NCBI GenBank assembly: GCA_016928715.1
Contig: JAFGKG010000077.1
Span: 1 to 45,394 of the forward strand
DNA: 45,394 nucleotides
Reading direction: 5' to 3'
Source of the DNA: Chloroflexia bacterium
Lineage (GTDB): Bacteria; Chloroflexota; Chloroflexia; DTKN01
Shown: positions 172 through 41,909 of the stretch, in pieces
Numbering within the stretch: position 1 is the first letter of the stretch
Layout: the number at the start of each line of letters is the position of its first letter
Notes under the pieces: generated by a model
Databases searched by the model: none
Seen by the model: the letters and a program-made list of their open reading frames with translations, nothing else
Told to the model about the DNA's origin: nothing
Position numbers and translations under genes: made by a program

Positions 172-190
172 TATAGTATAGACAGTCTAT
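172..190 (+). promoter_or_regulatory. Possible -10 element overlapped by a palindrome
   Basis: TATAGT at 172-177 could be a -10 hexamer for the cassette, but no good -35 lies 16-18 bp upstream because that space is occupied by the terminator stem. A 13-nt palindrome, ATAGAC-A-GTCTAT, sits at 178-190 just downstream, where a repressor or activator dimer could bind. Both calls rest on sequence pattern only. Confidence 0.3.
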
Positions 191-217
191 CGAGCCATGC
201 AGAGTGGGAAAGCAGCG

Positions 218-1552
218 ATGAGAAAACGCATCTTGATCGTCGACGATGAGGAGAGCACCGCCTTTTTCCTGGGCGAGAACCTGTCCGACCTGGGGGCCGA
301 GTACGAGGTTGATACGTCCTTTTCGGGGGAGGATGCCATTTACAAGATCGCCGTGCAGCCCTTTGATCTGGTGATCACTGACCTGCGCATGCCCGGGATA
401 AGCGGCCTGGATCTCTTTAGGTGGATTCGCCGGGCCAGCCCCGATACACGGCTCATCCTGATGACGGCCTATGGCTCGGCCGAGGTCGAGTCCCAGGCCA
501 AGCGCCTCTCCGTGCAGCGTTACATCACCAAGCCCTTTCGCATGGAGACCTTCCTGGAGGCCGTGCAGCAGGCTCTGGGGGGGAAATCGCTCAGCCAGCC
601 GGGCATGCTGGTGCTCTCCGATGCGGCCTTTGAGGCTATTACGGGCCGTCTGGACGAACTGCGCGCCGAGATCGATGCATCCTGCATCGTCCTGGCCGAC
701 ATTATGGGCCAGGTGATTACGCACAGCGGCATCGATTCCGACCTGGACGTGCATACCCTGGTCTCGCTGATCGGCGGCGGCTTTGCCACCACGTTTGAGC
801 TGGCCCGCTACATGGGTCAGGAGGGGGCTTTTAACCTCAACTACCAGGAGGGCGAATTTTACGACATCTATACCTCCAATGTGGGCGACAACCTCCTTTT
901 GGTCGTGCTTTATGGCAAGCCGGCCCAGTCCAGCCGCATTGGTCTGGTCTGGTTGTACACCCGGCGGGCGGTCGGCGATTTGCTGAGGCTGATGGCCGAG
1001 GCCGACATGACCGAGGCGCACGACCTCTTGAGCCAGGATTTCGAATCCCTGCTGCAGCACGAAATGGAGCAGGTCTTTGGAGGGGGGGACGACGATCTAT
1101 TGGCCCTGACGGCGGCGCTGGAGGATGTAGCGGAGCCGGCGGTCCAGCCCAAACCCCCGCAGAAACCGGCCCCCGCGCAGACCCCTCCAGCGCCCCAGTC
1201 CGAGCCGGCCCCGGTGGCTCCAGGAAAACCGGCGGCCGCCCCAGCGCTGGTCCAGCGAAAGCCGGCCCTCGCGCCGGAGGCGCGCCGTCCCGCAGTTCAA
1301 CAGCGGCCGGCTCCAGCGGAGGCGGCCAGTTCCAAGCCGGCCCCAGCGGCCCGGCCCAGCCCGACGGCTCAACCCAAGCGCCCCCGGCCGGAGCCAAAGG
1401 CGGCCCCGGCCACCGCCCTGGCGGGCGGTCTGCAGGGTGACCGCGCCACCTATTCTTTGGAGGAGGCGCTGCGCCTGGGTTTGATCGATGCTGAATTGTT
1501 CCAGAAACTCATGGGTAGGAAGGATAGCGAATATGCTGCCGAAAGCTCTTGA
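218..1552 (+). CDS. Response regulator receiver fused to a Roadblock/LC7 domain and a Pro/Ala-rich tail
   Basis: From the ATG at 218 the protein has 444 residues. Residues 1-120 are a CheY-like receiver: acidic pair D9-D10, phospho-acceptor D55 in VITDLRMPG, T83 and K105 in the usual places. Residues about 138-245 match the Roadblock/LC7 fold seen again in the next gene (SCIVLADIMGQ, a long helix, then SNVGDNLLLVVLYG). About 130 residues of low-complexity Pro/Ala/Lys sequence follow, then a short conserved-looking tail (YSLEEALRLGLIDAELFQKL). Roadblock proteins regulate MglA-type GTPases, and one is encoded two genes downstream. An in-frame ATG at 197 is possible, but 218 fits the receiver start better. 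The stop overlaps the next gene by 20 nt, which suggests translational coupling. The tail may be a flexible tether; that is inference. Confidence 0.88.
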   Translation: MRKRILIVDDEESTAFFLGENLSDLGAEYEVDTSFSGEDAIYKIAVQPFDLVITDLRMPGISGLDLFRWIRRASPDTRLILMTAYGSAEVESQAKRLSVQRYITKPFRMETFLEAVQQALGGKSLSQPGMLVLSDAAFEAITGRLDELRAEIDASCIVLADIMGQVITHSGIDSDLDVHTLVSLIGGGFATTFELARYMGQEGAFNLNYQEGEFYDIYTSNVGDNLLLVVLYGKPAQSSRIGLVWLYTRRAVGDLLRLMAEADMTEAHDLLSQDFESLLQHEMEQVFGGGDDDLLALTAALEDVAEPAVQPKPPQKPAPAQTPPAPQSEPAPVAPGKPAAAPALVQRKPALAPEARRPAVQQRPAPAEAASSKPAPAARPSPTAQPKRPRPEPKAAPATALAGGLQGDRATYSLEEALRLGLIDAELFQKLMGRKDSEYAAESS

Positions 1553-2021
1553 TTTCTCCGACCGGCAATTGGAAGAGATCAGCGCCTGTCTGACGTACAT
1601 GCGTTGGGAGGCCGAGGCCAGCTGCGTCCTGCTGGCCGATATCACCGGACAGCTCATTGAATCGCAGGGCCGCGTTGGCCGCATGAACACCGCCGTACTC
1701 TCGGCCTTGGCCGCCGGCAACCTGGCCGCCACCAAAGAGATGGCCCGCCTGGTCGGCGAGGAGGCCCGCTTCAAGCTGCTGGTCCACGAGGGGGAGTCTC
1801 GTAGCGTTTATCTCTCCGATGTGGGCGGCGAACTCGTTTTGATCAGTGTGTTTGGTAGCAGCACGCCCATCGGCATGATCCGCCTGCTGACCCGCCGCAC
1901 GGTGGAGCGCCTGCAGGAGATCTTGCTGCAGGCGCAGGAACAGGGACCGGTGCAGCAGGACCTGACCCAGGACTTTGGCCAACTGTTGGCCGACGAGCTG
2001 GACCTGTCCCTGGGCAGTTGA
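1533..2021 (+). CDS. Roadblock/LC7 domain protein
   Basis: A 162-residue protein whose core (CVLLADITGQLIES, then the SDVGGELVLISVFG strand pair) closely parallels the Roadblock region of the preceding receiver fusion, so the two probably arose by duplication. Roadblock/LC7 proteins such as MglB act as dimeric regulators, often GTPase-activating, of small Ras-like GTPases in bacteria. The ATG at 1533 is preceded by GGAAGGA and lies inside the upstream gene; an earlier in-frame start at 1488 would overlap more and lacks a ribosome binding site. The stop is followed 10 nt later by the GTPase start. This is the best candidate for the direct MglB-like partner of that GTPase, although MglB is usually a little shorter. 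Confidence 0.87.
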   Translation: MLPKALDFSDRQLEEISACLTYMRWEAEASCVLLADITGQLIESQGRVGRMNTAVLSALAAGNLAATKEMARLVGEEARFKLLVHEGESRSVYLSDVGGELVLISVFGSSTPIGMIRLLTRRTVERLQEILLQAQEQGPVQQDLTQDFGQLLADELDLSLGS

Positions 2022-2031
2022 GGAGAAGGCC

Positions 2032-2622
2032 ATGTTTATCAACCGTCGCCGCAAGGAATTGAATCTCAAGATCGTTTACTACGGGCCGGCCTTGAGCGGC
2101 AAGACGACCAACCTGCAGATGGTGCATGCCAAGACGCGGCCGGACCTGCGGGGGGAGCTCATCTCGCTCAAGACGCGCGAGGACCGCACGGTGTTCTTTG
2201 ACTACCTGCTGTTGGAGCTGGGGCAGGTAGCCGGGCTGACGCCCAAGTTCAACCTGTACACGGTACCGGGGCAGGTCTATTACGCGGCCAGCCGCAAGCT
2301 GGTGCTGCAGGGGGTGGATGGGGTTATCTTTGTGGCCGACTCCCAGCCCAGCCGGCTCAAGGCCAACCAGGAGTCGCTGCAGGACCTGCAGCGCTATCTG
2401 CGCGAGCTGGGTTACGATGCGCAGCAGTTGCCGCTGGTGGTGCAATTCAACAAGCGCGATCTGCCGCGGGTGCTGCCGGTGTCCTTTATGCGCAAGTACC
2501 TGCAGCTCAATGGCAGCACGCCGGTCTACGAGGCGGTGGCGGTGCAGGGACAGGGCGTCTTTGATACGCTCAAGGCCATGATCAACCGGGTCGTGGGACA
2601 GATCCAACGAGGTGGTATATAG
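2032..2622 (+). CDS. MglA-like small Ras-family GTPase
   Basis: A 196-residue cytoplasmic GTPase. The P-loop is GPALSGKTT at residues 18-26. The MglA-type G3 region reads LYTVPGQVYY (about 75-84) in place of the classical DxxG. The guanine-specificity motif is NKRD at 140-143. In Myxococcus and Thermus, MglA switches with an MglB Roadblock partner to set cell polarity and drive motility machines. Here the neighbours are three Roadblock-containing proteins, so the regulatory pairing is likely conserved, but no motility gene lies in the window. The start is the ATG at 2032, preceded by AGGAG right after the upstream stop; the longer open frame starting at 1975 is an overlap artefact. Confidence 0.93.
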   Translation: MFINRRRKELNLKIVYYGPALSGKTTNLQMVHAKTRPDLRGELISLKTREDRTVFFDYLLLELGQVAGLTPKFNLYTVPGQVYYAASRKLVLQGVDGVIFVADSQPSRLKANQESLQDLQRYLRELGYDAQQLPLVVQFNKRDLPRVLPVSFMRKYLQLNGSTPVYEAVAVQGQGVFDTLKAMINRVVGQIQRGGI

Positions 2623-2645
2623 GCCCAAAAGGGGAGTGTGTGGCG

Positions 2646-3374
2646 ATGGCTGTCAGTGGCAATCTACGCGATATGACCTTGACCACCCTGATCTCGGTCA
2701 ACTGTAACGAGGGGAATCAGGCCCTGCTGCGGCTGCGGCGGGGCGAGGAGGAGGCGCAGATCTATTTTGACGAGGGCAATATCGTGCACATGGTCCTGGA
2801 CGACCGCGAGGGTGAGGAGGTGATCCATGAACTGCTAGCCTGGGAGGACGCGCAGTTCGAGTTAGAGATGGGTGTAGCAGCGCCGGCCCGTACGGTGCAG
2901 ACGCTCTGGTCCAACCTGGTGTTGGGCGGCATGCAGATGATCGACGAGGCCGAGCTGACGGAAGAAATGTTAGCAGAAATAGAAATGGAGGAAGATCTGA
3001 TGGCAAATCTACAGGAAGTACTGCGGGAAATGGGCTCTTTGATCCCTGGCTTTATCGCCACCGACGTGGTGGGCATGGATGGCCTATCGATTGGAGGGTA
3101 CGCGGCGGATCCGCACTTTGACGGCGAGGCGGCCAGCGCCCAGTTCGCGCTGGTGATGAAGCTGGTGCAGCGGACGGTCGGGGAACTCGCCGGCGGCGAG
3201 GTGGAGGACAACCTGGTGACGACGGACAGGATCTATATCCTCACCCGTTTTCTGGGGGATGGGTCCTATTACCTGGGGATGGCTATAGACAAGGAGCAGG
3301 CGACCCTGGGCAACGTGCGCTTGGTATCGCGGCGCTTTGCCGATCGCATTTGGGCGGCTATCCCCAAGTTCTAG
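2646..3374 (+). CDS. DUF4388 (PATAN-like) domain fused to a Roadblock/LC7 domain
   Basis: A 242-residue, two-domain protein. Residues about 1-100 show the DUF4388/PATAN pattern: GNLRDMTLTTLISV, then a small domain with IYFDEGNIVHMVLDD, as found in many bacterial GTPase and two-component partners. After an acidic stretch, residues about 119-242 form a Roadblock domain starting MANLQEVLREMGSLIPGFIATDVVG. The ATG at 2646 follows GGGGAG at 9 nt; a GTG at 2640 is too close to that site. The Roadblock half has its own GGAGG and ATG (see 2987-3002), so a shorter product may also be made. Its role is probably to bind or regulate the adjacent MglA-like GTPase. Confidence 0.88.
   Translation: MAVSGNLRDMTLTTLISVNCNEGNQALLRLRRGEEEAQIYFDEGNIVHMVLDDREGEEVIHELLAWEDAQFELEMGVAAPARTVQTLWSNLVLGGMQMIDEAELTEEMLAEIEMEEDLMANLQEVLREMGSLIPGFIATDVVGMDGLSIGGYAADPHFDGEAASAQFALVMKLVQRTVGELAGGEVEDNLVTTDRIYILTRFLGDGSYYLGMAIDKEQATLGNVRLVSRRFADRIWAAIPKF
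2987..3002 (+). promoter_or_regulatory. Internal ribosome binding site and in-frame ATG within the DUF4388-Roadblock gene
   Basis: GGAGGA at 2987-2992 is followed 7 nt later by an in-frame ATG at 3000, exactly where the Roadblock domain begins (MANLQEVLREM). The bases around it are more AT-rich than the rest of the gene, as is usual around true starts. Either a second, 124-residue Roadblock protein is translated, or this is a relic of two genes that fused. Confidence 0.5.
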
Positions 3375-3419
3375 ATTGAGAAGGCTGTACGGAATACGCC
3401 ATACGAAAGGAGATGAGTG

Positions 3420-3896
3420 ATGGCTACCGAAGAACAGAAGCAACAGGCGCGTTTGCAATTGCTCGGCACCGTTCTCGCTGGCTTTATCACCGGTTTGTAC
3501 AAGCTTTTCGGTGATGGAGCCATGGCCACCGTGGACACGATTGGCCAGGACGTTCTGAAGGATATGGAGCACAAGCTGGGGCTTGAAATCCACGGCGAGG
3601 ATCCCCAGGATATCCTGACCGAGCTGGAGCGCCTGATGATCGACGAGTTCGGTCTGCTCCAGGACGCCAAGTTGGTCATTGAGGGTGGCAAGATCGCGCT
3701 GAGCTGCGAGAAATGCATGCTCTGGAACCTCTCGCGCACTTTGCAAGAGGCTGAAGTGCCGCTCTACAGCTGTGTGCCGATGATGATGGCTTCGACGGCG
3801 CTGCGCAAGCGTCTGCGCAAAAAGGCCAAATTCATGGGTATTACGCAGGATCAGGAAAATCACATCTGCAACATTGAGTTTCGCCTGCTGGATTGA
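3420..3896 (+). CDS. Unassigned cassette protein with four cysteines
   Basis: A 158-residue protein I cannot assign with confidence. The first 30 residues could form a hydrophobic helix (LLGTVLAGFITGLYKLF). A helical middle (about 40-80) is followed by a small beta region with cysteines at 96, 99, 118 and 150, arranged as CEKC, then YSC, then HIC. The layout, with helices followed by a Cys-containing alpha/beta end, recalls small sensory domains such as V4R or the methanogen output domains, but this is only an impression. The Cys set could bind a metal. The start is the ATG at 3420, 7 nt after AAGGAG; a GTG lies one codon earlier. It is the last gene before a strong hairpin and is probably co-transcribed with the GTPase. 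Confidence 0.75.
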   Translation: MATEEQKQQARLQLLGTVLAGFITGLYKLFGDGAMATVDTIGQDVLKDMEHKLGLEIHGEDPQDILTELERLMIDEFGLLQDAKLVIEGGKIALSCEKCMLWNLSRTLQEAEVPLYSCVPMMMASTALRKRLRKKAKFMGITQDQENHICNIEFRLLD

Positions 3897-3914
3897 CCCA
3901 GCGCTGTTGCTAGG

Positions 3915-3950
3915 AAGGGGTGGGGGCGCTGTTCTGCCCCTACCCCTTTT
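3915..3950 (+). terminator. Terminator-like hairpin inside the signalling cassette
   Basis: AAGGGGTGGGGGC pairs with GCCCCTACCCCTT (one wobble) around an 8-nt loop and is followed by TTTT and then a T-rich stretch. It stands between the Cys-containing protein and the amidoligase. I see no clear promoter after it, so it may act as a partial terminator that lowers expression of the three downstream genes relative to the GTPase module. Confidence 0.65.
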
Positions 3951-3973
3951 GGGATTTTTAGGCAGACATTCCG

Positions 3974-5287
3974 ATGAAGCAGCCCATCCTTTTCCGTCGG
4001 GACGACGTGCTCGACCACGAGCAGGCCAGGTACTGGAAGGACCTGCTCTATCGCACCCTCAAGATCGGTACTGAGGTCGAGTTTGCCATGCCCAAGGGCG
4101 TGCGCAAGAACGATCTGATGCCCCTCTTGTGGGAGGCATTGCAGCCGACCAAGGATCTGGGCCATCTGGGGCGTTACGGTGTGCTGGACGTGATCAGCGA
4201 GCACTGCGGCATCGAGATCCAGGTCATTGGCCGGCAGCCCTACTATGCCGCTCTGCGGCAGCAGTACCAGGAGTTATTCGCCCTGCTGCCGGAGGGCATT
4301 CGCGCTCGCCCCACCTGCGGCCTGCACTACCACGTGCTGGGGGTGGGCTTGTGCGAGGCCGTGCCCGAAATCGTGCTGGCTAATATCTGGAACCTGACCC
4401 GGCGCTATGCGCCGGAGCTGCGCTTTCTGAGCAGCGCAGGGGAGGGCATGGCCGCCCTCTGCCGGCGGCGCAACCATACCAGCCACCTGGAGATGGTCAA
4501 GCATTCTCCGGCCCTGCACCGCATGGCCCAGATACAGCAGTTCCTGAAGGAGAGCCGGCAGGTACCGGAACACCAGAACTTTATGAATCTGGAGCACCTG
4601 CGTTTTGACGAACCGGGGGACGTCGTTGACTTTCACCTGGAGTTTCGCTTTCCCGACGCCGACCTGTCGCCGACCTCGATTGTGGCCAAGACCTTTCTTT
4701 TCCTGGCGTTGGTGCTCAAGTCGGTCGACATGAGCCAGTACGGGGTGATCCACGTGGGCAAGATTCGGGAGTGGCGGCGCAAGATCGAACTCTTGGACCT
4801 CTTGAGCAATAACGAGGGTAAACTGGCTACCAGTGACACCAGTGGCATCGGGCCGGACGAGATCGAGGAACTGCGGGTGGGGGCGCGGGAACTGCTGGAA
4901 CTCTTGAAGCCGGCCTTTGTGCGCTTGGCGCGAGTGGCAGGGGACAGCAGCGAGGAGCACCCGGCTTTTGAGGTGCTGTCGCTGCTGGCCGAGACGCCGA
5001 TCTCGCTGCTGCGCAGCCGTGGGCGGGACTGGGTCGAGGTGGAGGCTCTGCTGGCGGAGCGGGCCGAAACGCCGGTCGGCCTGCTGGACCCGACGGAACT
5101 CAAGTTAATGCGCTGCATCGAGCTGGCCGAATTGAGCGGCTGTCCCGGCCTGGAGTCCTGGAAGTGGCAGGTCGCGCAGGAGCTGTTCCTGACGCCGAGA
5201 GAGTTGGAGCAGCGCCTGGACAAGTTGGACCGGCTGCGGGGGCTGCGTTGGGACCTGCAGTTGGGCACAATGGTGTTCACGAGCTAA
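3974..5287 (+). CDS. Putative amidoligase of the glutamine-synthetase-like fold (Amidoligase_2 type)
   Basis: A 437-residue protein. Motifs fit the ATP-dependent carboxylate-amine ligases of the GS-like fold: the metal-binding GTEVEF at residues 32-37, GIEIQV at 79-84, CGLHYHV at 115-121, and HLEFRFPD at 221-228. In that superfamily the N-terminal Glu pair, the central His pair and the late Glu/Arg bind metal and nucleotide. The last ~180 residues are helical and charged and are not part of the catalytic core as I know it. Amidoligases of this family join an amine or ammonia to a carboxylate; the substrate here is unknown. The next gene is a free glutaminase domain that could supply ammonia. 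The ATG at 3974 lacks a strong ribosome binding site, so the start is less certain than the family call. Confidence 0.72.
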   Translation: MKQPILFRRDDVLDHEQARYWKDLLYRTLKIGTEVEFAMPKGVRKNDLMPLLWEALQPTKDLGHLGRYGVLDVISEHCGIEIQVIGRQPYYAALRQQYQELFALLPEGIRARPTCGLHYHVLGVGLCEAVPEIVLANIWNLTRRYAPELRFLSSAGEGMAALCRRRNHTSHLEMVKHSPALHRMAQIQQFLKESRQVPEHQNFMNLEHLRFDEPGDVVDFHLEFRFPDADLSPTSIVAKTFLFLALVLKSVDMSQYGVIHVGKIREWRRKIELLDLLSNNEGKLATSDTSGIGPDEIEELRVGARELLELLKPAFVRLARVAGDSSEEHPAFEVLSLLAETPISLLRSRGRDWVEVEALLAERAETPVGLLDPTELKLMRCIELAELSGCPGLESWKWQVAQELFLTPRELEQRLDKLDRLRGLRWDLQLGTMVFTS

Positions 5288-5299
5288 AGGAGAGCGAGC

Positions 5300-6082
5300 G
5301 TGTGCGGATTAGCCGGCATCCTGCTACACCCGCAGGAGCGCACGCCGGAGCAGTGGCAGCAGTTGCGAGAGCTGTTCAGCCAGACCCTGCTCTACAACCA
5401 GGAGCGGGGTCGGGAGGCCTCCGGGGTGGCCCTGATCCAGACGGACGGCGACTTTCGCCTGTTCAAGCAGCCGCTGGCGGCTTCCGATCTGCTGCAGACG
5501 GCGCGTTATCGGGAGATACTGGCCCAATTGGGACCGCGGACGAGTTGTCTGTTGGGACATACGCGCATGCCGACCAAGGGCAGCCGTTGGAACAATGCCA
5601 ACAATCACCCCTTGCTGGTGGGGCGAGTGCTGGGGGTACACAACGGCGTGATCCAGAACGACGACGACCTCTTTGCCCGTCTCCAACTGCCCCGGCGTGG
5701 GCAGGTGGACAGCGAGATTATCTTTCGGCTGTTGAACGGCATCGAGTCCTATCCTCAGAACGGGCAGTTGCCGCAGGCGGTGCAGCAGGTGGCGCAGCAG
5801 CTCGACGGACCCTTTGCCACGCTTTCGGTGGATTTGCGCCGTCCCCGGGAGATTCTGGTGCTCAAGCACCTGCGGCCACTGTGCTTTCATTATGAGGCCG
5901 AGCTTCAGGCGGTCTTTTTTTCCTCGCGCTACCTGTTTTTGCGCAAGGCTTTTGGGCGTTCGGTGCTGACGGAGGCTTTGGATTCGGACCATGGCTTTGT
6001 TTTTGACGCGGAGAGTTTACCGCAGTGCGGGGGTCGGCCGCGGCATAACTTTGCCCTGGAGTGGCCGCAAGAGAGCGAATAG
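5300..6082 (+). CDS. Standalone class II glutamine amidotransferase (Ntn hydrolase) domain
   Basis: A 260-residue protein that consists only of the glutaminase domain. The catalytic Cys2 follows the initiator (MCGLAGIL). Other family signatures are RG at 36-37 with ASGVAL, GHTRMPT at 86-92, NNHPL at 101-105, the oxyanion-hole HNG at 114-116 and VDSE with Asp137. In PurF, GlmS and AsnB this domain releases ammonia from glutamine for an attached synthase. No synthase is attached here, so a separate partner is expected, and the amidoligase just upstream is the natural candidate (12-nt gap). The start is a GTG at 5300 after AAGGAGAG; removal of the initiator would expose Cys2 as the nucleophile. 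Similar lone domains can also act as gamma-glutamyl hydrolases. Confidence 0.87.
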   Translation: MCGLAGILLHPQERTPEQWQQLRELFSQTLLYNQERGREASGVALIQTDGDFRLFKQPLAASDLLQTARYREILAQLGPRTSCLLGHTRMPTKGSRWNNANNHPLLVGRVLGVHNGVIQNDDDLFARLQLPRRGQVDSEIIFRLLNGIESYPQNGQLPQAVQQVAQQLDGPFATLSVDLRRPREILVLKHLRPLCFHYEAELQAVFFSSRYLFLRKAFGRSVLTEALDSDHGFVFDAESLPQCGGRPRHNFALEWPQESE

Positions 6083-6093
6083 GAGCAGGACGC

Positions 6094-6438
6094 ATGAGTA
6101 CAATAGAACGCCGACAGTATCCCCGCTCCCAGGATTGGCACCTGGTCTCTTTTACCCATTACGATGAGCAGGGGGAGGTGGACGACCAGGGACTGGCCCG
6201 CACATTGGATATGAGCCGTGGAGGGCTGCTGCTCGAGATGACCTGGGCGCTGCCGTTGGGCAGTTGGCTGGATCTAGAGTTGCAGTTGCAGGATGAGATT
6301 CTCTGCTTGCAGAGCCAGGTGAGCCACGTGGAGGAGCGGCCCAACGGCCGTTTCGCTGTGGGGGTGGCCTTTCTGGATGTGTCGGAAGAGATTTTGGAGC
6401 GGATCGAGCACCAGATCCGTTGGTTGATGGGGCAGTAA
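6094..6438 (+). CDS. PilZ domain protein
   Basis: A 114-residue single-domain protein. It carries both cyclic-di-GMP binding motifs of PilZ: RRQYPR near residue 6 (RxxxR) and DMSRGGLLLEM near residue 39 (D/NxSxxG). The rest is the expected six-stranded barrel with a C-terminal helix. It should bind cyclic-di-GMP and pass the signal to a partner protein. The start is the ATG at 6094, 8 nt after AGGAG and 11 nt after the preceding stop, so it is in the same transcript as the glutaminase. It is the last gene of the cassette; a convergent gene follows. Its presence suggests that the amidoligase branch or the GTPase module responds to cyclic-di-GMP. Confidence 0.92.
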   Translation: MSTIERRQYPRSQDWHLVSFTHYDEQGEVDDQGLARTLDMSRGGLLLEMTWALPLGSWLDLELQLQDEILCLQSQVSHVEERPNGRFAVGVAFLDVSEEILERIEHQIRWLMGQ

Positions 6439-6528: not shown

Positions 6529-9500
6529 TCAGTCCAGCCCCTGGCTCAACACTTGCCCGGCCACTTCTTCCAGGCGCTGCCCCTGGCCGCGGGCCAGGGC
6601 GGCCTCGATCTCTGCTGAGGAGAGTTGCTCGTGCAAATAGTCCAGGGTGGGCTGCAGGTTGAGCTTGGTGTCGATGCGCAGGGAGGGGTGCTGCAGCACC
6701 AGGCCCAGGAACTCCAGGGCTCGTTCCATCCGGCCGGTGCGGGCCAGGATGCTGGCCAGGCCCCCCAAAGATTCCAATACGATGGGGGTGACCCGGCCGG
6801 CCGTGGCCCCCCGTAGGGCGCGATAGAAATAGGACTTGGCACGGTCATAGTCCTCCTGGACGACGGCGACGAGGCCCAAGTTGGCCAGCGTGTTGGCGGT
6901 GTTCTGGGGATGGTGCAGTTTTTCAAAGAGATCCAGCGCCTGCTCGTAATAATCGCGTGCGGTGGGATAATCCTGCTGGCTCCAGGCCAGCACGCCCAGG
7001 TTATTGAGGACGGCGGCCGTGCCCCGGTGGTCGCCCAGGCCGCGGTACAGTTCCAGGCTTTGCAGGAGGAATTTGTGGGCCGCCTCAGGGGCATGCTCGC
7101 GGGTGGCGACTGTGGCCAGCCCGTTATAGGCCAGGGCCAGGAGGCCCTGGTCGCCGATCTCCTGGCTTACAGCCAGGCCCTGGTCCAGATAGGAGCGAGC
7201 CTGCTCATAGTTGCCCAGGCGGTATTCCAGCCAACCCAGGTCAAGCAGGTTTTGGGCCTCTCCAGCGCGGCGCCCCAATTGGCGGTTCAGCTTTAATCCT
7301 TCCTCCAGCCACTGGCGAGATTCGTCAAAGTCACCCTGTTCGCGGGCGATCAGACCCAACAGGAACAGTACTTCGATGATTTCATCGGATCGGTCTGCCT
7401 GGCGGGCCAGGGCCAGGCTTTCCTCTAGCCGGCGCCGGGCCCCGGCATAGTTGCGCAGGCGATAGAGCGCGTTTCCGGCCTGCATCAAGAGGGGGATGCG
7501 GGCCGAGCTTTGGCGGGGTAGGGAGGCCAGGGCTCGCTCCAAAAAGATCTGGGCTTCCCGAAAGGCATAGACCCGCGCGGCCTGTTCGCCGGCCTGGCTC
7601 AGGTACTTGGCCGCCAGGCCGGGTTGGCGGGCCTGATCCATGTGTTCGGCCCAGAGGCCGGCGTAGGTGTTGGCCCGCTCCTCGTTCTGTTCCATCAGCC
7701 AGCGTGCGGCGCGTGTGTGGTAGCGCCGGGCGAGCTCTGGGGAGAGGGCTTGCCAGGCCGCCTGGCGTATTTGGCCGTGTTTGAAAACGTATTCAGTTTG
7801 TCCGCGCAGGATCGAACCCTCTTGGCGGCGGATCAGGTCACGCTGTTCCAGCGCTGCCAGGACAGAGTCAACGGGCGCGTGCTCTTGGCCAGGGAACTCG
7901 AGGACTTGAGACCAAAAAGTGAGCCCCAGGACGGCGGCGCGCTGCAGTACGTCCTGTTGGTCAGCCGGCAGATGGTCAAAGCGGGCCTGGACAACCTCTT
8001 CCAGGCTGGGGGGGATGGGCTGCGGGCTTGTGCCCTGCTCGACGATCAAGCGGGCGATTTCCTCCAGGTAGAGGGGGTTGCCCCGGGCCTGTGCGAGGAT
8101 GGCCGTGATTTTGTCCTCGCCCGGCCTGTTCAGGGCGTTTAAGCGGCTCTCGAATAAATGGCGGCTGTCCTGGTCGGTGAGGGGTGACAGGTCCAGGCGG
8201 CTGTACCAGGGCGATCCCTGGGCCGTGCGCAGGAGGGCTTGGGTGGTTTCGCCGGCCTGTTCCCAGTGGGGGTCGCGCTGCAGAAAGGCCGGTCGGGCCG
8301 TACAGACGACCAGGATGGGGCGGTCGGCCAGGCCCTCGGCCAGTCGTTTGATGGCCTGGAGCGAACTCTCGTCGGCGCGGTGCAGGTCTTCGAGCAGGAT
8401 GAGCAGGGGCTGCTGGGTGGACAGTGCCTGCCAATAGTCGCTGATGGCGAGCAGGGCCTGATCGCGCAGCCGGTCCGTTTCGTCCAGGGGGCTGGTGGGC
8501 TGGGGGCCGAGGCCGGTCTGGAAGCCGAGCAAATGGCCGATCAGGTGGACGTATTCCATGGCATCCACCTCTTGGATCGGGCCGGCGATGCCGCGGGCTA
8601 GTTTATGGCGGGCCAGTTCTGGGGGGTCGCTCTCGCGGATGTGGTGGGCGTAGGCAAAGAGGTTGCGCAGCAGGGCGTAGGGCAGATATGCCCCGCCCGG
8701 CTGGGCCCGGAACTTGAGGTAGGGGCGGGGTGACCGTTCGGCCCAGAGGTCAAACTCGTCCAGCAGGCGGGATTTGCCCAGGCCGGCTTCGCCGACGATG
8801 GTGACGATCCAGCAGCGCCCCTCTTCCCACAGGGCTTGGAAGGCTTCCTGCAGATGCTGCAGCTCTTCGTCGCGCCCCAGCAGGGGAGTTTCCTCCCCTT
8901 CGACGCGGTGGATAGGGCGGCGGAAGGTCCAGGGCTGAACCTGATAGATGGGCTTGTCCACGTTGCTATCCGCGATGGAGGGGGGGAACCGGGGCTGCAG
9001 GTCGAACCGTCCGCGGACGAGATCGGCCAGGGGGGCCGAGATGAGCATAGTATCGGCGAGGGCAGCCTGCTGCAACAGGCCGGCGACCTGGGTGATGGCC
9101 GCAGCCTCTTGAGGAGGGCCGCTGTGCAGGCCAATTTGGAGAGTGCTTTGGGATGCTTGCCCTGCAAGGGCAGTTTCCTGGCCGGCGGCGAGTATGGCCA
9201 GCCCGGTCCGGATGGCCTGTTGGGGGGCCTCTATTAGCGAGCTTGCGGGCTCCCATTGGGCGGTCCAGTTGTTGCCCGACCCTGCTTGGAATTGCCCCTG
9301 CTGCGCGGCAATGATGCTTTTCAAGCGCGCTTCTAGGAGGTCAATTGTGGGCGCGTTGGGGTCCGCTAATCCGGCCTGGAGCACGACCACGTTTTGGTAG
9401 GAACGCAGCCGGGTCAATTGCTCCCGCAGGGGCGCCAGTTCGGGCTCGACGGCGGCATCCCCCATAGCAAAACGCCGCTGTTCCAGGGACTCGATGGCGG

Positions 9501-9540
9501 CTTCCAGTTCGGCGATCCGCTCTTGCAGGGACTTTTCCAT
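6529..9540 (-). CDS. AAA ATPase signalling protein with degenerate cyclase-like N-terminus and TPR array
   Basis: A 1003-residue cytoplasmic protein. Residues 1-47 are a coiled coil. Residues about 48-200 look like a decayed class III nucleotide cyclase domain: QIGLHSGPP at 135-143 and DTMLISAPLADLVRGRFDL at 163-181 match the family, but the first metal-binding Asp is missing (VVVLQAGLAD). From about 217 a STAND/AAA domain follows, with Walker A GEAGLGKS at 250-257 and a Walker B LLILLEDLHRADE. A helical region and about nine TPR repeats (about 640-960) end the protein. Family members are usually adenylate cyclase-AAA-TPR regulators; this one probably keeps only ATP-dependent assembly and protein binding. 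The ATG at 9540 follows GGAGGACAG and a good promoter. Confidence 0.85.
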   Translation of the reverse strand: MEKSLQERIAELEAAIESLEQRRFAMGDAAVEPELAPLREQLTRLRSYQNVVVLQAGLADPNAPTIDLLEARLKSIIAAQQGQFQAGSGNNWTAQWEPASSLIEAPQQAIRTGLAILAAGQETALAGQASQSTLQIGLHSGPPQEAAAITQVAGLLQQAALADTMLISAPLADLVRGRFDLQPRFPPSIADSNVDKPIYQVQPWTFRRPIHRVEGEETPLLGRDEELQHLQEAFQALWEEGRCWIVTIVGEAGLGKSRLLDEFDLWAERSPRPYLKFRAQPGGAYLPYALLRNLFAYAHHIRESDPPELARHKLARGIAGPIQEVDAMEYVHLIGHLLGFQTGLGPQPTSPLDETDRLRDQALLAISDYWQALSTQQPLLILLEDLHRADESSLQAIKRLAEGLADRPILVVCTARPAFLQRDPHWEQAGETTQALLRTAQGSPWYSRLDLSPLTDQDSRHLFESRLNALNRPGEDKITAILAQARGNPLYLEEIARLIVEQGTSPQPIPPSLEEVVQARFDHLPADQQDVLQRAAVLGLTFWSQVLEFPGQEHAPVDSVLAALEQRDLIRRQEGSILRGQTEYVFKHGQIRQAAWQALSPELARRYHTRAARWLMEQNEERANTYAGLWAEHMDQARQPGLAAKYLSQAGEQAARVYAFREAQIFLERALASLPRQSSARIPLLMQAGNALYRLRNYAGARRRLEESLALARQADRSDEIIEVLFLLGLIAREQGDFDESRQWLEEGLKLNRQLGRRAGEAQNLLDLGWLEYRLGNYEQARSYLDQGLAVSQEIGDQGLLALAYNGLATVATREHAPEAAHKFLLQSLELYRGLGDHRGTAAVLNNLGVLAWSQQDYPTARDYYEQALDLFEKLHHPQNTANTLANLGLVAVVQEDYDRAKSYFYRALRGATAGRVTPIVLESLGGLASILARTGRMERALEFLGLVLQHPSLRIDTKLNLQPTLDYLHEQLSSAEIEAALARGQGQRLEEVAGQVLSQGLD

Positions 9541-39293: not shown

Positions 39294-41909
39294 ATGGAAC
39301 TTGTTTTGACGCACAGCAACACGGATTTTGATGCGTTGGCCTCCTTGTTCGCGGCTTCGCGATTGTTTCCCGGTGCGCTGCCGGTTTTGCCCCAACGCAT
39401 CAATCGCAACCTGCAGGATTTCCTATCCCTGTATCGGGCGGAACTGCCTTTTATCAACGTGGAGGATCTGCCGGCTGAGCATGTGAGCCGTATCATTTTA
39501 GTGGATACCCAGCAGGTGCCCTCTCTATCCATTCCGTTGGGTCCCTTTCCCCCACCGGTAGAGATTCTGGACCACCATCCCCTCAGTCGAGAGTTGGGGG
39601 ATCATGAGCGTTATACCGGATTTGAGGTGGGCGCTACGGTTACCCTCTTGTTGCCGCGGATGATCGAGCGTGGGGAGCAGCTTTCGCCGGTTCAAGTGAC
39701 GCTCTTGTTGCTGGGAATCTATGAGGACACGGGATCCCTATCCTATCCGGGAACAACGCCGGAGGATCTGCGTTGCGCGGCCTGGCTTTTAGAACATGGT
39801 GCCAGTCTGCACATCATGTCCGAGTTTCTCAACCGCCCCTTGAGCGAGGGGCAACTGGAAATCTATAACCAACTGGTATCGACCGCAGTTGTACACGAGG
39901 TTTACGGTTGGCCTATTGTTGTGGCCCAGGCGCGGGTCAAGGGTTATGTGGAAGAGATCTCTACCCTGGCCCACCCCCTGCACGACCTATATGATCCGGC
40001 GGCCTTGTTCCTGTTGGTCCAGCTTGGAGGTATGGTACAAATCGTCGCTCGCAGCAATGGAAGGGCTGTACATGTTGGGGAGGTTATGGATCGTTTTGGC
40101 GGGGGCGGTCATGCCCAGGCGGCAGCGGCGTTTTTGCCAGGGCGGCAGGTGGACGAGATCCGTGAGGGACTGCTCCAATTTTTAGCCGAGTCGGTGCGGC
40201 CCATGCGCACGGCGGCCGACATTATGACCCGGCGTTTGCATACGATCTCTCCCCAGGCCACTTTGACCGAGGCTGCCGAGAGGATGACCCGTTATGGGCA
40301 TGGGAGCCTGCCGGTTGTCGATGGGGAGGATCGCTTGGTCGGTCTGCTAACCCGGCGTGCTCTGGATCGAGCGCTGCATCACGGGCTGGAGGGCAGGCCT
40401 GTGGCTACCTACATGTGGAAGGGGCCGGTAACGGTGCCCCCCGATTTGCCGGTAGAAAAGGTCCGCCACACAATGATGGATCGTGACGTGGGGCGATTGT
40501 TGGTGTTGGAGCAAGATCGTCGATTGGTGGGCATTATCACCCGCACAGACTTGCTCAAACTGTGGCCCGCAAGCCCTCCAGAGAGGGAGGGGTTGCCGGG
40601 AATCTGGCTGGAGCGGTTGCAACAGACCGTCCCCCCAGCCGTTTTTCACCTGCTTCAGCGGGCCGGCCGGCTGGCTGATCAGGGGGAATTCGGCCTTTAT
40701 GTGGTGGGTGGATTCGTGCGGGATATGATGTTGGGCCTTTCCAATCTCGACCTGGATTTGGTGGTTGAGGGGGATGCGATCGCGCTGGCGCAAGAATTGT
40801 CCGCTCAACTAGGGGGGCGAGTTCGCAGTCATCGTCGCTTTGGTACGGCCAAGTGGATTCTGGAGGGAGTTCGGACGCCGGATCAAGGCCGAGCCGGATT
40901 GCCCCATCATCTGGATTTTGTCACCGCTCGGACCGAGTTTTACGAGGAACCCACTGCTTTACCCACGGTCGAGTTTAGCTCCCTGCGCCACGACCTCTAT
41001 CGCCGGGATTTTACCCTGAATACTTTGGCCATTGCGTTGAGTGGCGGTCCGTCTGGCCGGCTATTCGACTTTTATGGCGGAAAACGGGATCTCGACCGGG
41101 GCCTGATCCGGGCATTACATAATTTAAGCTTTATAGAGGATCCTACCCGCATCCTGCGGGCGGTCCGTCTGGAGCAGCGTCTGGACTTTCGGATTGAGCC
41201 ACGAACTTTGCAGTTACTGCAAGATGCCTTGCAGCAGGGATTATTGGAGCGAACGACCGGCGAGCGTATCCGCCATGAGCTTTTATTGATCCTAGAGGAG
41301 GCTTCTCCAGGGCCGGTACTGGCCCGCCTGGACGAATTGGGTGTGCTGGAGCGGATCTCGCCCCGGCTCTCTTGGGATGATTGGCTTGCTCAACGTTTTC
41401 ATCATGTAGAGCAAGTGCTTTTGAGGGATAAGGACCGTTCTACGCTCTATCTGGCGTTGCTCTTTTACCGCTTACCGCCCCAAGATATCGAGCAGGCTAT
41501 TGAGCGCTATCGTTTTCGGTCCCGGCGTAGTCGAGTGTTGCGGGAGGTGTTACAGCTACGTCAAGGGGCGGTTTTAGAGTTACGTAAAGGCCTGCCCCCG
41601 CCGAGTCAAATCTATCATCTCTTGGAGCCCTATTCTGAGGTTGCCTTGCAAGTGCTCTTTTTGGCCGAGATAAACGAGCACGTGCATCAGGCGGTAGAGT
41701 TGTATCTGAAGAGGCTTTCCTCTGTGCGCACGGAACTCAATGGGGATGATCTCAAGGCTCTGGGCCTAGCGCCTGGCCCCTTGTACAAGGATTTGTTGGG
41801 GCGATTGCTGGAGGCCCGTTTGGATGGGCAGGTCCAAAGTCGGGTGGAGGAGCAAAGGTTGCTCCAAGAGCTGCTGAGTGTGGAGGGCTTGTCCGGTCTC
41901 TTGGGCTGA
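39294..41909 (+). CDS. Fusion of DHH phosphoesterase, CBS pair and CCA-adding / poly(A) polymerase domains
   Basis: An 871-residue protein. Residues about 1-300 are a DHH-DHHA1 phosphoesterase: HSNTDFDALAS at 7-17, DHH in ILDHHPLS near 93, and GGGGHAQAAAAF near 267. Two CBS repeats (about 308-425) follow. From about 455 the class II nucleotidyltransferase head has VVGGFVRDMMLG, the LDLDLVVEGD metal-binding pair and HRRFGTAKW, then RRDFTLNTLA and EDPTRILRAVRL. The C-terminal domain binds tRNA. Related long enzymes in Aquifex and delta-proteobacteria add A or CC to tRNA 3' ends; the DHH part could degrade small nucleotides or RNA, and CBS could bind adenylates. The ATG at 39294 has a weak ribosome binding site. 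Confidence 0.92.
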   Translation: MELVLTHSNTDFDALASLFAASRLFPGALPVLPQRINRNLQDFLSLYRAELPFINVEDLPAEHVSRIILVDTQQVPSLSIPLGPFPPPVEILDHHPLSRELGDHERYTGFEVGATVTLLLPRMIERGEQLSPVQVTLLLLGIYEDTGSLSYPGTTPEDLRCAAWLLEHGASLHIMSEFLNRPLSEGQLEIYNQLVSTAVVHEVYGWPIVVAQARVKGYVEEISTLAHPLHDLYDPAALFLLVQLGGMVQIVARSNGRAVHVGEVMDRFGGGGHAQAAAAFLPGRQVDEIREGLLQFLAESVRPMRTAADIMTRRLHTISPQATLTEAAERMTRYGHGSLPVVDGEDRLVGLLTRRALDRALHHGLEGRPVATYMWKGPVTVPPDLPVEKVRHTMMDRDVGRLLVLEQDRRLVGIITRTDLLKLWPASPPEREGLPGIWLERLQQTVPPAVFHLLQRAGRLADQGEFGLYVVGGFVRDMMLGLSNLDLDLVVEGDAIALAQELSAQLGGRVRSHRRFGTAKWILEGVRTPDQGRAGLPHHLDFVTARTEFYEEPTALPTVEFSSLRHDLYRRDFTLNTLAIALSGGPSGRLFDFYGGKRDLDRGLIRALHNLSFIEDPTRILRAVRLEQRLDFRIEPRTLQLLQDALQQGLLERTTGERIRHELLLILEEASPGPVLARLDELGVLERISPRLSWDDWLAQRFHHVEQVLLRDKDRSTLYLALLFYRLPPQDIEQAIERYRFRSRRSRVLREVLQLRQGAVLELRKGLPPPSQIYHLLEPYSEVALQVLFLAEINEHVHQAVELYLKRLSSVRTELNGDDLKALGLAPGPLYKDLLGRLLEARLDGQVQSRVEEQRLLQELLSVEGLSGLLG

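Follow-up and report, generated by a model that had tools for sequence, protein, structure and literature searches.

The window analysed here, a 45,394-nucleotide stretch of contig JAFGKG010000077.1 from a Chloroflexia bacterium, carries at positions 172–6438 a row of eight genes on one strand, in which an MglA/Roadblock signalling half is joined to an enzyme half composed of an amidoligase and a class II glutaminase. Three phyla share this gene order, indicating that the arrangement is far beyond chance; the signalling half and the enzyme half belong together genetically. An earlier note on this DNA had listed the eight genes, had proposed a search for the same gene order as a check on the linkage, and had stated that its author knew of no described system placing both halves under one receiver and one cyclic-di-GMP input. 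Every gene is present and confirmed, with most domains supported by Pfam (Table 1), the search bears out the linkage, and an open-access literature search found no paper that joins MglA/Roadblock with amidoligase/glutaminase. These observations suggest an undescribed signalling system with chemical modification as its output. Our preferred reading, held tentatively and at somewhat less than an even chance, is that a two-component/MglA–Roadblock/V4R switch controls a glutamine-dependent amidoligase.

Genetic linkage of the two halves

A scan covering some 85,000 species genomes identified relatives of the amidoligase at 12 further loci (57–72% identical) in Chloroflexota, Acidobacteriota, and Desulfobacterota; relatives beyond these 12 loci came from genome searches, and identity across the relatives is 57–73%. 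In all 19 loci with upstream sequence, a gene for a V4R/TRAPPC3-like protein (V4R-like hereafter) precedes the amidoligase gene, either adjacent or separated from it by a single gene. After the amidoligase gene comes a class II glutaminase gene wherever the contig goes on, Longilinea excepted. Upstream, nearly all loci contain a Roadblock gene, usually one encoding a fusion of Roadblock with DUF4388, which we take to be the PATAN domain. In Chloroflexota, the genes for MglA and for a fusion of a receiver domain (REC) with Roadblock are located within a few kb.

In one class, the V4R-like protein is encoded by 13 of 298 genomes. The amidoligase is found in 12 of the 13 (in one as a contig-edge fragment) and the glutaminase in 11, two genomes being counted from a contig edge or another contig. 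MglA is encoded no more than about 5 kb from the V4R-like gene in 12 genomes of this set, those with enough contig, and in Desulfobacterota locus L013. Loci that seemed to have the V4R-like gene but lack an amidoligase were considered as a class of their own and discarded as mostly an assembly artefact; three of the four genomes have an amidoligase on another contig, one of them only as a contig-edge fragment.

The module is patchily distributed. It is present in none of 157 further genomes from the window's own class, in one of 399 other genomes sampled from the phylum, in 3 of 297 Acidobacteriota genomes, and in 2 of 247 Desulfobacterota genomes, plus one distant relative. Searches of phages and plasmids found no module relatives, and PADLOC anti-phage defence models matched none of five module proteins. 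Some of the carriers are poorly studied soil and sediment bacteria. The high cross-phylum identity and the patchy occurrence suggest horizontal transfer, for which the tree has too little resolution (2 of 15 branches well supported).

The amidoligase and the glutaminase

The amidoligase is outside the reach of standard family models. The Pfam model PF12224 (Amidoligase_2) does not reach its gathering score, with no match for the window protein and an E-value of 0.082 for the best of 13 members; an NCBIfam scan gives no assignment, and a Protein Data Bank (PDB) search with the amidoligase profile finds nothing credible. When compared with Amidoligase_2 relatives by hhalign, a narrow alignment matches weakly (31%), and only the enlarged family matches strongly (93.5%, E 2.4e-7, 208 columns, in a single comparison). 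The match spans the catalytic motifs GxExE, GxHxH, and ExRFxDA, whose key residues are kept even in a 32%-identical member. In the family, ExE (34,36), E81, HxH (118,120), N205, and ExRxxD (223–228) are invariant. Both the profile homology and the metal/ATP-site motifs of a glutamine synthetase (GS)-fold COOH–NH2 ligase are thus present, and on this sequence evidence the protein is a diverged GS-fold ligase of Amidoligase_2 kin.

One distant relative was rejected as a module member. At L086:7917–10351 (Desulfobacterota), a 32%-identical amidoligase lies right after a phiEco32-like COOH–NH2 ligase (PF14395), with genes for SSB and a helicase upstream; the region looks like a phage or prophage with two tandem ligases.

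In the glutaminase, residues C2, R89, N115-G116, and D137 are invariant in 11 aligned sequences, which provides the N-terminal Cys and the glutamine-binding Arg, Asn-Gly, and Asp of a class II glutamine amidotransferase (GATase). The domain is nearest to the glutaminase domains of GlmS/PurF. The pairwise distances of amidoligase and GATase II are tightly correlated (r = 0.84, reached in 0 of 2000 permutations), so the two look like one enzyme unit.

Pfam describes Amidoligase_2 as linked with GATase-like thiol peptidases or Aig2-type cyclotransferases, which hints that one bond is both made and broken. The two enzymes might accordingly act as writer and eraser: the amidoligase would add a glutamyl or amine group to a module protein or small molecule, the glutaminase-like N-terminal-Cys hydrolase would remove it, and the balance between them would be set by the GTPase circuit. 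Among GATase II proteins are gamma-glutamyl hydrolases such as EgtC (a weak match here, 28.8 bits), and the two module enzymes co-diverge tightly. However, the best matches are GlmS/PurF glutaminases with all glutamine-binding residues, which fits ammonia donation equally, and Longilinea has the ligase without the hydrolase. We consider the writer/eraser explanation unlikely.

The V4R/TRAPPC3-like protein

The gene between the switch proteins and the enzymes had been described in the earlier note as encoding an unassigned Cys protein. It now has a predicted fold, V4R/TRAPPC3-like, and proves to be the amidoligase's most constant neighbour. Pfam and NCBIfam scans gave it no family, Pfam V4R (PF02830) matches none of 13 family members, and a PDB sequence search with its profile finds nothing credible. 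The AlphaFold2 model (predicted local distance difference test score, pLDDT, 90.4) contains the helices and the four-stranded antiparallel sheet of the V4R/TRAPPC3 structural superfamily. The best Foldseek match is mouse Bet3/TRAPPC3 (E 9.6e-5, probability 1.00), with template-modelling (TM) scores of 0.5–0.58 for TRAPP chains. Other matches are Drosophila TRAPP core subunits, Thorarchaeota TRAPPC3, H-NOX, PoxR/MopR V4R, and BcsD.

In the family alignment, G22xxxG26 in the N-terminal helix is invariant, as are C100 and C119. The G22-x3-G26 motif resembles the glycine pair in Bet3 and V4R (PMC2253512). An hhalign comparison with Pfam-V4R relatives is weak (0.0016), yet full length and in register. 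The protein is therefore predicted to belong in the V4R/TRAPPC3 structural superfamily and not in Pfam V4R proper.

Two loci contain V4R-like genes duplicated in tandem (L073:5805–6951 and L077:4366–5419), making a heterodimer possible. A second related family, 23–32% identical (MSxxxVxLDYxNS...KAFWDERGKGARFRVTTVGRDYF), occurs in about 16 Longilinea-class genomes (loci L052–L067, L087–L089, and L091). At L088, its gene lies amid genes for a nitroreductase, a CoA-transferase, and a branched-chain amino acid ABC transporter.

The switch proteins and PilZ

MglA aligns over its full length with the solved structure of Myxococcus xanthus MglA and keeps the P-loop, the DRT arginine, TVPGQ, and NKRD, all invariant or nearly so across 17 module MglAs. 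Both the homology and the motifs are those of MglA, a prokaryotic Ras-like GTPase. Its candidate partners contain Roadblock/LC7 domains, detected by Pfam (Robl_LC7) or by hhalign, with a putative GTPase-activating or guanine nucleotide exchange (GAP/GEF) role. The Roadblock half of the REC–Roadblock protein can be aligned to Roadblock proteins from modules at other loci (for example, 1.4e-20). The C-terminal half of the DUF4388 protein, which the Pfam scan missed, is Roadblock as well, matching two Roadblock sets at 92–94% in hhalign, compared with 0.2% for MglA as control. The PATAN domain has been reported close to MglA/MglB genes (PMC4316618).

Kinases, REC–GAF proteins, and REC–DUF4388 proteins flank the module. 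The earlier note had placed both halves under one receiver and one cyclic-di-GMP input; the inputs are usually several histidine kinases and receivers, and the second input falls away as a module part. The PilZ protein has intact RxxxR (RQYPR) and DxSxxG (DMSRGG) motifs and is present in the window only, with no match in 13 related loci. Therefore, the cyclic-di-GMP input is a local addition, and PilZ is outside the module.

A polarity or motility system of the MglA family, with a cell-surface or pilus component as the target modified by the enzymes, would account for an MglA of the Myxococcus/Thermus type, for the Roadblock, PATAN, and receiver partners that such systems typically have (PMC4316618), and for the adjoining PilZ gene in the window. 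However, none of the module neighbours scanned was recognised as a pilus, gliding, or envelope gene, and the enzymes read as cytosolic (no export feature was noticed; signal peptides were not predicted). This explanation appears improbable, the least likely of those considered here.

The hairpin at the junction and the cohesion of the module

The junction between the V4R-like and amidoligase genes contains a T-tailed hairpin (3913–3950) of −28.5 kcal/mol, a value reached by 0 of 60 shuffles. Comparable hairpins of unrelated sequence occupy the same junction in L003, L004, L005, L011, and L081 (reached by 0 or 1 of 60 shuffles). The hairpin is thus found in 6 of 10 testable loci, and it is absent from four other short gaps. 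This recurrence argues for an attenuator rather than an operon boundary: by partial termination, the hairpin may keep the enzymes below the switch proteins in level. In the window, about 24 bases separate the hairpin from the amidoligase start codon, too little room for an ordinary promoter. A full stop at the hairpin, with a promoter inside the V4R-like gene, is conceivable.

Several observations weigh against our preferred reading. Longilinea is without the module glutaminase. In two loci, the V4R-like and amidoligase genes are separated by an inserted gene, for a carbonic anhydrase (L009:9212–9802) or a protoglobin (L073:7097–7687). The structure model of the amidoligase has low confidence (pLDDT 49) and its Foldseek list is mostly noise, so the fold assignment draws on the profile alignment and the motifs. 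The distances of V4R-like protein and amidoligase are weakly correlated (r = 0.21, reached in 74 of 2000 permutations), indicating that the signalling part is exchanged more freely. Finally, Acidobacteriota clusters have the module without a neighbouring MglA gene; a rule that the module always occurs with MglA is therefore rejected. Elsewhere in the genome, these Acidobacteriota carry three to five MglA-like genes.

The locus could also consist of two neighbours that share only co-transfer, namely a cassette for polarity or sensing (MglA/Roadblock/PATAN/V4R) and an amidoligase–glutaminase pair with its own transcription and a metabolic function, such as making a glutamyl amine or an osmolyte. 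The strong terminator-like hairpin, the inserted genes, and the weak co-divergence across the junction fit such a division, as does G989, which has the switch half without the enzymes. Nevertheless, the two halves are associated in three phyla and, within one class, in 12 of 13 genomes; every amidoligase locus with upstream sequence also has the V4R-like gene, no further metabolic gene is a constant companion, and the hairpin leaves an ordinary promoter no room in the window. We judge a mere neighbourhood to be about as improbable as the writer/eraser explanation.

Feature list and neighbouring genes

Table 1 Features of the module in the window.
Feature	Position	Strand	Evidence
REC + Roadblock + Pro/Ala-rich linker, 451 amino acids	197..1552 (start maybe 218)	+	Response_reg 3.3e-23 (Pfam)
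Roadblock/LC7, MglB-like	1533..2021	+	Robl_LC7 1.5e-8 (Pfam); NCBIfam MglB 64 bits, under that model's cut-off
MglA small GTPase	2032..2622	+	229 bits vs M. xanthus MglA 6h17
DUF4388 (PATAN)–Roadblock	2640..3374	+	DUF4388 2.6e-15 (Pfam); Roadblock half via hhalign
V4R/TRAPPC3(Bet3)-like alpha/beta protein (predicted fold; the 'Cys protein'), 159 residues	3420..3896	+	AlphaFold2, Foldseek, hhalign
T-tailed hairpin between the V4R-like and amidoligase genes (candidate attenuator)	3913..3958	+	−28.5 kcal/mol
Putative GS-fold amidoligase (COOH–NH2 ligase), diverged Amidoligase_2 relative	3974..5287	+	hhalign 93.5%, E 2.4e-7 (single comparison)
Free class II glutamine amidotransferase (glutaminase) domain	5300..6082	+	GATase_6 6e-16 (Pfam); GlmS glutaminase 1.3e-18
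PilZ protein	6094..6438	+	PilZ 1.5e-11 (Pfam)

The start of the Roadblock gene overlaps the end of the REC–Roadblock gene. For the V4R-like gene, start 3420 was chosen; its homologues begin MATEE. The first 108 bases of the window read as the end of an OmpR-type regulator gene, and the relative at L004 has a REC + Trans_reg_C gene at the matching position. Convergent with the PilZ gene, a 1003-residue AAA_16–TPR protein is encoded at 6529–9540 on the minus strand. Positions 39294–41909 encode a protein of 871 residues that combines DHHA1 and two CBS domains with a poly(A) polymerase/CCA-adding head. In two Acidobacteriota modules, a gene for a ParA/MinD-like ATPase (L009:12225–13031 and L010:12172–12978) follows the glutaminase gene.

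Discussion

In the reading we prefer, the locus would be a signalling–effector module that is horizontally mobile or repeatedly lost. Histidine kinases and receivers would act through the Roadblock domains (REC–Roadblock, MglB-like, and PATAN–Roadblock) on the state of MglA. The V4R-like protein would provide a second small-molecule input, probably a hydrophobic ligand, or serve as a subunit coupling the switch to the enzyme. The amidoligase would couple an amine to a carboxylate at the expense of ATP, and the glutaminase would supply ammonia from glutamine. The product may be a small amide that serves as a signal within the circuit and perhaps as the V4R ligand, or it may be an amidated module protein, and the hairpin ahead of the amidoligase would lower enzyme expression relative to the switch proteins. 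In this scheme, the substrate, the ammonia transfer, the attenuation, and the control that the GTPase and V4R-like protein would exert on the enzymes are inferred.

A bolder version is that the GTPase, the Roadblock dimers, and the TRAPPC3/V4R-fold protein directly gate the glutamine-dependent amidoligase, yielding a new amide signal or protein modification, and that such a switch is a bacterial counterpart, in parts, of the TRAPP–Rab arrangement. We regard these two proposals, taken jointly, as doubtful.

To our knowledge, the enzymatic outputs of bacterial MglA-type GTPases beyond motility are largely unknown. The amide-forming enzyme pair is a candidate for such an output, being genetically tied to the switch in three phyla. 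The block is also a bacterial test case for the joint occurrence of small GTPase, Roadblock, and TRAPPC3/V4R folds, usually discussed in connection with membrane traffic in eukaryotes and with Asgard archaea. Most of the module is present in the cultured strain Longilinea arvoryzae, which makes the idea testable.

The combination of small GTPase, Roadblock, and TRAPPC3 proteins has been discussed for Asgard archaea and eukaryotes (PMC10933270). The module shares these three eukaryotic-like folds, but it is bacterial, forms one gene block, and contains an MglA that is not Rab-like; we make no claim that its proteins are orthologues of the Asgard or eukaryotic ones. With the V4R/TRAPPC3 (Bet3)/H-NOX/PoxR sensor-domain fold, the V4R-like protein has in common the predicted fold, the G-x3-G helix motif, and a conserved Cys after the sheet. 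It differs in forming its own sequence family, in its one long N-terminal helix, in standing alone, and in being tied to MglA/Roadblock genes.

The MglA/MglB polarity switch with a RomR-type receiver, known from M. xanthus and Thermus, is alike in GTPase family, intact motifs, Roadblock partners, and receivers. The module adds the V4R/TRAPPC3-like protein, PATAN–Roadblock, and two amide-bond enzymes, and no motility genes were recognised nearby. The actinobacterial conservons (CvnA–D) are alike in forming an operon with a sensor kinase, Roadblock, a small GTPase, and an accessory protein. Their four-gene core (CvnA kinase, CvnB Roadblock, CvnC, and CvnD GTPase) differs from the module in gene set and order; no CvnC-type protein was recognised, and the module, found in other phyla, has the V4R-like protein in its place, along with receivers, PATAN, and an enzymatic output.

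The pairing of amidoligase and GATase is itself already known, reportedly from Iyer and colleagues (2009); the locus is best described as an MglA–Roadblock signalling operon with a new kind of output. Amidoligase_2 (PF12224) with its GATase-like thiol peptidase neighbours shares with the module the GS-fold motifs GxExE, GxHxH, and ExRFxDA and the adjacent class II GATase. The module enzyme, in contrast, is missed by the Pfam model, is about 440 amino acids long with an extra C-terminal region, and is set within GTPase signalling.

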